From the NCBI GenBank assembly GCA_020852515.1, contig JADZAS010000030.1, forward strand, positions 62,001 through 126,000: a DNA stretch of 64,000 nt, in the 5' to 3' direction. A program made the position numbers and the translations under genes. This DNA is from Phycisphaerales bacterium (lineage in GTDB: Bacteria > Planctomycetota > Phycisphaerae > Phycisphaerales > UBA5793). Shown piece after piece: positions 52,785 to 60,100 of the stretch (position 1 is the first letter of the stretch; each line of letters starts with the position of its first letter). Below the pieces are notes generated by a model that saw only the letters and a program-made list of their open reading frames with translations, ran no database searches and was not told the origin of the DNA.

Positions 52785-54254
52785 CTACCGCTTCAGTCCT
52801 TCGGGGATGTACCGCGGCTTGTTGATCCAGCGGTCGGTCCCCGGCTCGCCGTATCTTCCTGTCTTCTCGTCGCCCTCGTAGCAGTTGTTGTCCACACCGT
52901 CTTCGCCGAAGGACCACAGCAGGTATGACGTTCCGTCCGAGGTCTGGCTCAGGCGGCAGTAGCCCCACGTCTGCCCGTTGAGCGGATCCAGCGGCACCTC
53001 CGGGAGAATGTCGGGCGCCAGATCGTCGAGCGAGGTCGGCGCGCGGCCCTCGCTCGCGATGTAGATCTCAATGGCGAGCATCAGGCGGGTGGATTCGATG
53101 TGGTGCTGGTGGCGCCGCCAGCCGAAGGCCACCAATTGCGGATTCAGAGTCATCGACTTGATGACCACCTGATGCAAAGGGAGTGGGCGTGTCCACCGGG
53201 CAATGGACGCGTCCGGATCACGCAGCTCGCGGCTCTCGACTTTCTCAACGACCTCGCGCGTGTACTCCGCGTCGAGGCGCTCGGCCGTCGCGCGCCCGGG
53301 AATGATGATGGCCGCGACATCGGCGGCCGTGTCTTTGAACGACCTTGCCGGCGCCGCTGTGCCCGGAAGCGTTGTGCCGGGATTGAGCATGCCGAACGAA
53401 CTGATCGGTAGCCGGCCGGACGTGGTGTACAGGTTCTGAATCTGATCCAGATGGAGCAAGTGCTCTCCCGCCATGGTGAATTCGGCCGTGGGCAGTTTGG
53501 CGCGATCTTCGACGATGCGCAAGAGGCTTCGCGCCGAGGCTTCGTCGAGCGGCCGTTCAACGAGTGTCGTGCGCAACTCGCCGAGAACGGAATCGACGCA
53601 GGAGACTGCAACGAGATGATTGATCAGCGAAGGCTGGTAGCCGACGAAACGAGACACGGCGAGGGATTCGTTCGTGATGTCCGCTAAATCCTGCCACTTC
53701 CCATTGCTGGCGGTCACCGCCATGCGACCGGCTTGAAGCCTGATCAACTGCCTGACCTTCGTGAGCACCGGCAGGTTGGCGGCGATGTAAGCGTTGTTGA
53801 ACGGCTCGCCGTCAACCCGCGGCCGCACGCAACGGCTCATGCTGGCCAACTGCCCGAGTTGGTCGAGTGTGCCGTCCGCCCGAAGATCGTCCAAGGCTCG
53901 GTAGTGCGGTTTGAGACTCGGATGCGTGAGGCGCTGGCAGGTGAGGTCAGAGAACATCCCGGGGATCATCGTGCCGTCGGTGTAGTACTGCGTAGCGACG
54001 GGGTCTTCACTCAGCGTCTTCGACGCCTCATCGACGCGCTCCAGCACCTCCATCAGCAGCGGCCAGGCGTTTTCGCCTTCGCCTTGCGCGCTGCTGCACA
54101 GTTCATAGAACTGGCTCGCATAGTCGATGCTCGGCTGCGGCTTGCCGGTGAAAATGTCGTACACCTGCCACGCGAGCCAGAGGGCGAGCAGCGTGGCGAT
54201 GGTCCAGAACGCACGCCGCCGGGTGAGCCAGCGAATTGGCCGGGTCCGGTGCAT
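52785..54254 (-). CDS. membrane-anchored protein with pseudopilin-like C-terminus
   Basis: The 489-residue product shares its whole layout with the downstream paralogue: basic start, membrane segment (about 14-33), then LAWQVYDIFTGKPQPSIDYA, QGEGEN, and the C-terminal APTSLDDLAPDILPEVPLDPLNGQTWGY, SYLLWSFGEDGVDNN and a Gly/Asp-rich end. That end resembles pseudopilin G calcium loops, but there is no prepilin cleavage site. The genes are 26 bases apart and co-oriented. Function is unknown; identity to the paralogue is moderate. Confidence 0.7.
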   Translation of the reverse strand: MHRTRPIRWLTRRRAFWTIATLLALWLAWQVYDIFTGKPQPSIDYASQFYELCSSAQGEGENAWPLLMEVLERVDEASKTLSEDPVATQYYTDGTMIPGMFSDLTCQRLTHPSLKPHYRALDDLRADGTLDQLGQLASMSRCVRPRVDGEPFNNAYIAANLPVLTKVRQLIRLQAGRMAVTASNGKWQDLADITNESLAVSRFVGYQPSLINHLVAVSCVDSVLGELRTTLVERPLDEASARSLLRIVEDRAKLPTAEFTMAGEHLLHLDQIQNLYTTSGRLPISSFGMLNPGTTLPGTAAPARSFKDTAADVAAIIIPGRATAERLDAEYTREVVEKVESRELRDPDASIARWTRPLPLHQVVIKSMTLNPQLVAFGWRRHQHHIESTRLMLAIEIYIASEGRAPTSLDDLAPDILPEVPLDPLNGQTWGYCRLSQTSDGTSYLLWSFGEDGVDNNCYEGDEKTGRYGEPGTDRWINKPRYIPEGLKR

Positions 54255-58207: not shown

Positions 58208-58291
58208 AAAACCTGGCACCTTTTGCTAACCTGGGCAAAGCTCGCCTGCTCGACTCCGCTCTTTTTTTGCCCGTTTTTCGACGGCGTTACC

Positions 58292-58319
58292 TTGACTGAC
58301 CGACCGGTCGGTCTACACT
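58292..58319 (+). promoter_or_regulatory. tetR promoter with operator filling the spacer
   Basis: TTGACT (58292-58297) and TACACT (58314-58319) are separated by exactly 16 bases. Those 16 bases (58298-58313) are the perfect palindrome GACCGACCGGTCGGTC. A bound TetR dimer would block RNA polymerase, giving autorepression. Transcription would start near 58326, only three bases before the ATG, so the message is probably leaderless. Confidence 0.8.
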
Positions 58320-58328
58320 TGCCCTCGG

Positions 58329-58925
58329 ATGACCGACTCCGAAACCAGATCCCGACTCATCGAGGCCGCGTACGCACTCATGCTCTCCAACGGATATTCC
58401 GCCACCGGAGTGGCCGACATCTGCTCGGCGGCCGGCGTGAGCAAGGGCAGCTTCTACCACTGCTTTGAGACCAAGGAGCAGTGCGCCCTGGCGGCCCTGC
58501 GCGACCACATGAGCCGGGCCCGCGAACAGGTCGAAGCCGGGCTCGATCTCACCGGCCTCTCTCCAGCCCAGGCGGCGGTAAAATACGTCGAGCACATTGA
58601 AAAAGGCGCCGAGGACATCTGGTGCGACGGCTGCCTCGTCGGTGCTTTTGCCTTGGAAATCAGCGAAACGCAGCCGGCGATTCGCGAAGAGGTTTCGCAG
58701 GTGCTGCGCGACCTGGCCGACTACATGGAGTCGATCTTCGCCCCGCTGGCCAAGGCGGTGCGCGGCCCCGGCTCGCCGTCGGCGCGGGAGCTGGCCGAGC
58801 AGTACATCGCCGTCATCGAAGGCGGCGTGGTTCTCAGCCGGGCCCACAGCGACATCCGCATGGTGCCTCAGGCCCTGCGCACCTTCCGCCGCTACCTCTC
58901 ATTGCTGCTGACCCACTCGAACTGA
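58329..58925 (+). CDS. TetR family transcriptional regulator
   Basis: The 198-residue repressor has an N-terminal helix-turn-helix (SRLIEAAYALMLSNGYSATGVADICSAAGVSKGSFYHCFETKE, DNA-binding helix SKGSFYHCF) and an all-helical ligand domain. Cys residues in the C-terminal domain (EDIWCDGCLVG) resemble the NemR-like group, which senses electrophiles. A palindromic operator sits in its promoter and again before the methyltransferase, so it probably controls both. The start is fixed by the HTH; there is almost no 5' leader and no ribosome binding site. Confidence 0.9.
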   Translation: MTDSETRSRLIEAAYALMLSNGYSATGVADICSAAGVSKGSFYHCFETKEQCALAALRDHMSRAREQVEAGLDLTGLSPAQAAVKYVEHIEKGAEDIWCDGCLVGAFALEISETQPAIREEVSQVLRDLADYMESIFAPLAKAVRGPGSPSARELAEQYIAVIEGGVVLSRAHSDIRMVPQALRTFRRYLSLLLTHSN

Positions 58926-58975: not shown

Positions 58976-58997
58976 TACCAACCGGTCGGTCTATTTT
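58976..58997 (+). promoter_or_regulatory. second TetR operator, before the methyltransferase
   Basis: TACCAACCGGTCGGTC (58976-58991) matches 14 of 16 bases of the tetR operator. A TATTTT (58992-58997) follows immediately and could be the -10 hexamer, as TACACT follows the first site. No good -35 is seen, so this operator is placed as at the tetR promoter but the promoter is weaker. Confidence 0.7.
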
Positions 58998-59032
58998 AGT
59001 ACTCCCGCTACTACTTTGAAAGGAAAGAGACC

Positions 59033-60100
59033 ATGCCCACACTCACTCCCGAACTCGAATCGCTCGTCGGTAAGGTCATCACCGACCTCGGCGGCACGGC
59101 CAACGCATTGCTCGTCATCGTCGGCGACCGCCTCGGCCTCTACGAAACGCTCGCGCGCATCGGTCCGCTCACTGCCGCCGAACTGGCCAAAGGCACCAAC
59201 ACGAGCGAGCGCTACATCCGCGAGTGGCTCTCGGCCCAGGCGGCGTCGGGTTACATCGAGTACGACGCGGCGACGGAGCGCTTCAGCATGACGCCCGAGC
59301 AGGCCATGCTCTTTGCCGACGAGAACAGCCCGCTCTACATGGCCGGCGGCTTCTTCTCGGCGGGCTCGCTCATCCGCAGCGATGAAGCGCTCGCCGAGGC
59401 CTTCCGCACCGGCCGCGGCATCGGCTGGGGCGATCACCACGAGTGCCTCTTCTGCGGCACCGAAAAGTTCTTCCGCCCTTCCTACGCGAGCAACCTCGTC
59501 CAGACGTGGATCCCCTCGCTCAATGGCGTGCGCGAAAAACTCGAGCGCGGCGCGAGCGTCGCCGACATCGGCTGCGGGCACGGCGCTTCGACCATCATCA
59601 TGGCCAAGGCGTTTCCCAACTCGCAGTTCATCGGCTTCGATCCACACGCGCCGTCGATCGAGCACGCGAAGCAGCACGCGCGGGAAGAGGGTCTGGACAA
59701 CGTGCGCTTCGAGATCGCCACGGCTCAGGACTTTCCCAAAAGGCTCGACGGCGCCGGCTACGACTTCGTGTGCGTCTTCGATGCGCTCCACGACATGGGC
59801 GACCCGCGCGGCGCCGCCCGGCACGTGCGCGAATCGCTCAAGCCCGGCGGCACGTGGATGATCGTCGAACCGGCGGCGGGCGATCGACTCGAGGAGAATC
59901 TCAATCCCATCGGCCGCGTGTACTACGCCTTCTCAGCCGCCGTGTGCGTGCCCTCGGCCCTGAGCCAGAGCGGCGGCGACTCGCTCGGCGCCCAGGCTGG
60001 GCCCGCGCGGCTCACCGAGATCGTCGGCAGCGGCGGCTTCAAGAGCACGCGCATCGCCGCTCAGTCTCCCTTCAACCTCGTGCTTGAGGCAACGGCCTAA
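59033..60100 (+). CDS. SAM-dependent methyltransferase with winged-helix N-terminus
   Basis: The 355-residue product has a winged-helix dimerisation domain (residues 1-110, LTAAELAKGTNTSERYIREWL) and a class I methyltransferase domain with the SAM motif VADIGCGHGAST (about 177-188), then FIGFDPHAPSIEHAK and VCVFDALHDMGD. It resembles the Rv2258c-like group; its substrate is unknown. A purine-rich AAAGGAAAGAG precedes the ATG. A TetR operator lies just upstream, so it is probably induced with the repressor by the same small molecule. Confidence 0.85.
   Translation: MPTLTPELESLVGKVITDLGGTANALLVIVGDRLGLYETLARIGPLTAAELAKGTNTSERYIREWLSAQAASGYIEYDAATERFSMTPEQAMLFADENSPLYMAGGFFSAGSLIRSDEALAEAFRTGRGIGWGDHHECLFCGTEKFFRPSYASNLVQTWIPSLNGVREKLERGASVADIGCGHGASTIIMAKAFPNSQFIGFDPHAPSIEHAKQHAREEGLDNVRFEIATAQDFPKRLDGAGYDFVCVFDALHDMGDPRGAARHVRESLKPGGTWMIVEPAAGDRLEENLNPIGRVYYAFSAAVCVPSALSQSGGDSLGAQAGPARLTEIVGSGGFKSTRIAAQSPFNLVLEATA

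Follow-up and report, generated by a model that had tools for sequence, protein, structure and literature searches.

A TetR-family gene of a planctomycete with a putative palindromic operator in its promoter spacer and a predicted near-leaderless message

Among described systems, the one most like that reported here is AcuR of Rhodobacter sphaeroides. It is a TetR-type autorepressor whose inverted repeat overlaps its own promoter, and mutations in this operator lead to constitutive expression (PMC3017554). Ten sequenced 5' RACE clones of the acuR message begin at the AUG, and by measurement the translation of acuR is weaker than that of the genes downstream of it (PMC3017554). The same paper names tetR of transposon Tn1721 as another gene with a leaderless message. 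In Burkholderia cenocepacia the operator core of PaaR, ACCGACCGGTCGGT, lies between the -35 and the -10, where its mutation relieves repression and where a dual overlapping repeat has been noted (PMC2770484). A survey of 953 bacterial genomes took a -10-like TANNNT, lying some 10-12 nt upstream of the start codon, as the mark of leaderless genes (PMC3160421); the main text of that paper contains no word beginning with "planctomyc". Leaderless and/or S1-linked signals have been inferred for a single planctomycete (PMC5397173), and a search of open-licence papers with a few word combinations found no planctomycete start-site map.

The gene considered here lies in a window of 64,000 nucleotides, the whole stretch of DNA that was analysed, from a Phycisphaerales bacterium. 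We think it probable, with good confidence, that this tetR encodes an autorepressor translated from a leaderless or nearly leaderless message, and that the predicted binding of its product also controls the methyltransferase gene that follows. The features of the locus are as follows, in positions of the window.

58292..58297, + strand: -35 element TTGACT, 5/6 to TTGACA, from the sequence and the promoter scan
58298..58313, + strand: operator GACCGACCGGTCGGTC, a perfect 16-bp palindrome whose core ACCRACCGGTCGGTCTA is conserved
58314..58319, + strand: -10 element TACACT, of the form TANNNT
58320-58328, + strand: 9-nt stretch TGCCCTCGG between the -10 and the ATG
58326..58329, + strand: predicted zone of transcription initiation, at the ATG or up to 3 nt upstream of it, placed from the position of the -10
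58329..58925, + strand: TetR-family repressor P0001, 198 aa (PF00440), with no upstream in-frame start and no Shine-Dalgarno-like sequence
58976..58991, + strand: second operator TACCAACCGGTCGGTC, differing from the first by 2 mismatches, before the methyltransferase gene, from sequence searches
58992..58997, + strand: TATTTT, directly adjoining the second operator, candidate -10 for the methyltransferase promoter, which has no clear -35
59020..59027, + strand: Shine-Dalgarno-like sequence AAGGAAAG of the methyltransferase gene
59033..60100, + strand: SAM-dependent methyltransferase P0002, 355 aa, with an Rv2258c-like winged HTH and a methyltransferase domain

Re-reading positions 58292-58328 gave TTGACT, the palindrome, TACACT and 9 nt followed by the ATG at 58329, so that the layout proposed by the sequence-only reading is correct to the base. 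The final TA of the operator core doubles as the start of the -10. In the promoter scan this site scores 9/12, and the 951 nt scanned held 2 promoter-like sites where 0.1 were expected from shuffles. The 4,724,080-base genome has a single exact copy of the 16-mer. When up to 3 mismatches were allowed, the window contained 4 matches versus 1.0 expected, namely the tetR site, its overlapping register, the second operator at 58976 and a site at 52824 that is probably due to chance. We also collected promoter-like pairs (-35 of at least 4/6, spacer of 15-19 nt, TANNNT) on both strands of 464 kb of the same genome; 2 of the 166 pairs have a perfect palindrome of at least 12 bp in the spacer, and the longest is the 16 bp of tetR. 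A chance origin of the palindrome was ruled out, since it is unique in the genome, is kept in two relatives and recurs, as the second operator, in front of the next gene. The operator at 58298-58313 can be read as GACC GACC GGTC GGTC, overlapping inverted repeats that could accommodate two dimers. The operator of Tn1721 tetR differs from this one, and that repressor controls a tetracycline pump gene divergently.

Comparison with the described systems places this tetR close to several of them. It resembles AcuR as an autorepressor with an operator over the -35/-10 region, a leaderless message, no Shine-Dalgarno sequence and a target downstream, all of which are read or predicted here. In contrast, the AcuR operator is TAATAGAC-n6-GTCTATTA, and AcuR acts on acuI and dddL within an acuR-acuI-dddL operon that has no internal promoters, whereas the methyltransferase gene here has an operator of its own (PMC3017554). 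With Tn1721 tetR the likeness is that of a TetR repressor with a leaderless message, which in our case is predicted (PMC3017554). The PaaR core ACCGACCGGTCGGT is identical to the inner 14 bp of the operator here and also lies inside a spacer, but PaaR acts on phenylacetate genes, whose putative ribosome-binding site is indicated in the figure legend, and paaR itself belongs to a two-gene unit whose own regulation was not settled (PMC2770484). The gene also shares the -10-like mark of the TANNNT-led genes (PMC3160421), its -10 ending 9 nt before the ATG. Because AcuR, PaaR and the TANNNT-led genes have already been described, the tetR switch is a further example of a known design.

P0001 matches TetR_N (PF00440) over residues 10-56 with 52.6 bits (cut-off 24), and its C-terminal domain is of the TetR type, with 45.5 bits to PF21993 and 37.1 bits to PF16925 (cut-off 27 for both). 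Its best NCBIfam match is AcuR (NF051457), at 72.8 bits versus an equivalog cut-off of 247 bits, a score that rules out AcuR orthology. An acuI-like oxidoreductase is absent from the adjoining positions, the next gene being the SAM methyltransferase and the preceding one a phosphodiesterase. The open frame has 209 codons for a 198-aa protein, the frame above the ATG is open for about 11 codons and contains no other start, and the first start is at 58329, which rules out an upstream in-frame start. By eye, GGAG, GAGG, AGGA and AAGG are all absent from the 20 nt before this ATG.

Orthologs of the repressor were found in two congeners, G004 (KLAP200 contig, 94% identity) and G001 (UBA5793 contig, 79%), while two other genomes of the genus, G002 and G003, contain distant TetR proteins and no ortholog of P0001. 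The N-terminus MTDSET is common to the repressors of the three species; a TTG overlapping the -35 in G001 opens a 209-codon frame that the other species do not share. The promoters read TTGACT-16-TACACT-9-ATG in the window, TTGACT-17-TAATGT-9-ATG in G004 and TTGCCT-17-TACGCT-7-ATG in G001. Both congeners keep the operator core within the spacer, a TANNNT -10 and the short distance from -10 to ATG, amid surrounding DNA that has diverged among all three, and the promoter/operator block therefore acts like a conserved unit. In all three species the TA of the -10 also serves as the operator edge (GGTCTA). G004 has a perfect palindrome of 14 bp, and one pair of the 16-mer is mismatched in G001. The earlier claim that the palindrome exactly fills the spacer holds in the window (16/16) but is not conserved, as the 17-nt spacers of G004 and G001 make this fit particular to the window genome.

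This conservation bears on the possibility that, with a genuine operator and autoregulation, the main start nevertheless lies further upstream, in which case the message would have a leader without a Shine-Dalgarno sequence, the operator would act as a roadblock and TTGACT/TACACT would not be a promoter. A T-rich tract upstream of the tetR promoter, at 58262-58268, could favor such a start. Against it, the TTG, the 16-17 nt spacer and the TANNNT are kept along with the operator, and DNA further upstream is not. Taken with the genome-wide data on start codons given below, this leaves an upstream main start improbable, at roughly one chance in eight. In G001 the neighbour upstream of tetR is another ORF, encoded on the opposite strand, and its transcription would not be expected to read through into tetR.

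The second operator and the methyltransferase target had no place in the sequence-only reading. A 21-nt sequence, ATACCAACCGGTCGGTCTATT, at the methyltransferase promoter is identical in all three species. No recognisable -35 was seen at this promoter despite the perfectly conserved operator, and in G001 the -10 is not an operator-abutting TANNNT, the best candidate being shifted by about 3 nt. Both the poor -35 and the different -10 of G001 count against a simple picture of the methyltransferase promoter. Activated promoters often lack a good -35, and this feature would fit a TetR protein that activates its own and the methyltransferase promoter instead of repressing them. For AcuR and PaaR, however, operators that overlap the core promoter act negatively, and expression rises when they are mutated (PMC3017554, PMC2770484), and we regard activation as very unlikely.

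We searched 61 genomes for the 17-mer ACCRACCGGTCGGTCTA with up to 1 mismatch. The exact core has 2 sites, at the repressor's own promoter and at that of the methyltransferase, in each of the 3 genomes that carry this repressor, and none in the other 58; the other returns were a single 1-mismatch site in G051 and the tetR site of G001 read once on the reverse strand. Operator and repressor therefore co-occur across the 61 genomes. TetR proteins can have similar operators in common and four TetR_N genes are present in the genome, so that another member of the family might bind both sites, with the adjoining tetR as a mere target. Since the exact operator is confined to the genomes that carry this repressor (3 of 61), and to positions next to it, such a protein is a very improbable binder. 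Co-occurrence and three-species conservation together give good support to the earlier proposal that the gene is autoregulated through its promoter operator, and the methyltransferase P0002 is likely a regulated target of the same repressor.

By sequence, the closest solved relative of P0002 is TnmJ. Outside the genus we found 11 loci with homologs of the methyltransferase (E < 1e-30), and the neighbourhoods of 10 were covered. A TetR gene adjoins the homolog in 5 of these 10 (4 divergent, 1 tandem) and is absent from the other 5. The four closest homologs (55-57% identity) have no TetR gene beside them, and the pairing of TetR and methyltransferase is therefore not fixed. The TetR-adjoining loci, L044, L046, L047, L048 and L049, belong to other families of the order. 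In L048 the TetR gene is tandem to the methyltransferase homolog and has a predicted leaderless promoter, TTGACA-17-TAGGAT-9-ATG (L130).

The elements themselves, their conservation in three species, the co-occurrence of operator and repressor and the genome-wide leaderless signal are seen in the sequence, and from them we infer binding, repression, a ligand, the start site and the level of translation. In the proposed mechanism one or two dimers of the 198-aa TetR protein would bind the palindrome in the spacer and keep RNA polymerase off the protein's own promoter. At the second operator, abutting the -10, the same repressor would block the methyltransferase promoter. A small ligand in the C-terminal pocket, perhaps the substrate of the methyltransferase, would release the repressor. 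The tetR message would start 0-3 nt before the AUG without a ribosome-binding site, which would keep the repressor scarce. Since the repressor message would be leaderless and lack such a site while that of the methyltransferase has a normal leader along with a ribosome-binding site, production of the enzyme would outstrip that of the repressor, and induction would yield much enzyme and little repressor. The locus offers a clean and testable case of leaderless autoregulation outside the groups where this has been demonstrated, with a likely target gene named.

The predicted start follows from the position of the -10. Its last base is at 58319, which would put the usual start at about 58326-58328 and give a leader of 1-3 nt, or 0 if transcription begins at the A of the ATG. 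The 9 nt from this -10 to the ATG is long for the genome, in which the commonest distance is 5-6 nt, and a leader of 1-3 nt is therefore likelier than exactly none. The start about three bases before the ATG that the earlier reading had given thus becomes a predicted zone of 0-3 nt, probably with a 1-3 nt leader. Its broader claim of a leaderless or nearly leaderless message is well supported by the short -10-to-ATG distance kept in the congeners and by leaderless starts that look common in the genome.

For this genome-wide comparison we sampled 464 kb, consisting of the window and 20 stretches of 20 kb (L067-L086). Genes were called by a simple codon-usage script that also chose the start codons, and 337 of 338 had enough upstream sequence. 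TANNNT ending 5-9 nt before the start was found 38 times, in 37 of the 337 genes, versus 8.0 expected from other distances (Poisson P ~1.5e-14), while internal in-frame ATGs have it in 12 of 2024 cases. About 1 gene in 10 of the sampled genome thus has a -10 at leaderless distance, which bears on how planctomycetes initiate translation. Shine-Dalgarno-like sequences precede 4 of the 37 TANNNT-led genes versus 129 of the other 300 (Fisher P 1.2e-4). In all, 133 of the 337 called genes have one and the majority do not, which would suit a main tetR start further upstream with a leader lacking this sequence; the position of the tetR -10, in contrast, fits the genome-wide peak of -10 elements before start codons. 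TANNNT at leaderless distance together with a -35 of at least 4/6 was present at only 7 starts of the 337 genes, and the -35 is therefore unreliable for calling promoters here.

The signal extends to other families. Four relatives, from four other families of the order, were sampled with five stretches of 20 kb each (L242-L261); in these, TANNNT at 5-9 nt was counted 13, 11, 6 and 9 times versus 1.5, 1.4, 1.9 and 2.0 expected, with P from 9e-9 to 0.012. The case of 6 versus 1.9 is weak (P 0.012), and in the family with 9 versus 2.0 the internal ATGs are also rather high (9 of 434). This suggests that leaderless genes are widespread in this planctomycete order, with a strength that varies by family. 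Given the enrichment of TANNNT before starts, messages whose first base lies at the AUG or just ahead of it look normal in this lineage.

To place tetR among its relatives, we surveyed all 148 TetR_N matches in 46 genomes of the order for a TANNNT 5-9 nt before a possible start with a -35 at 15-19 nt. Such a promoter precedes 22 of the 148 TetR genes, versus 5-13 (mean 8.6) in ten control distance bins, counts that are uncorrected for relatedness; perhaps 13 are therefore genuine. With AcuR a proven case of the same design (PMC3017554), this recurrence does not bear out the earlier description of the arrangement as unusually compact. Among the 21 spacers with a -35 of at least 4/6, 10 exceed their own shuffles in palindromy (P < 0.05), and 3 of these 10 are the tetR under study and its two orthologs. 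The 21 leaderless-distance spacers are more palindromic than 82 control spacers (Mann-Whitney P 1.5e-4, uncorrected for relatedness). A tentative generalization, which we hold to be possible but on balance doubtful, is that autorepressing TetR genes of this order recurrently use one module, with the operator in the -35/-10 spacer and the start at the AUG. Leaderless translation would then keep the repressor scarce while a target with its own operator and a leader is translated well, so that the type of leader would set the ratio of repressor to target across the lineage. Clear examples from the survey come from G045 (TTGAAA-16-TAGGAT-6-ATG) and from G022 (TTGACT-17-TAAGAT-6-ATG), where both spacers contain a palindrome of the CGATCGGT type.
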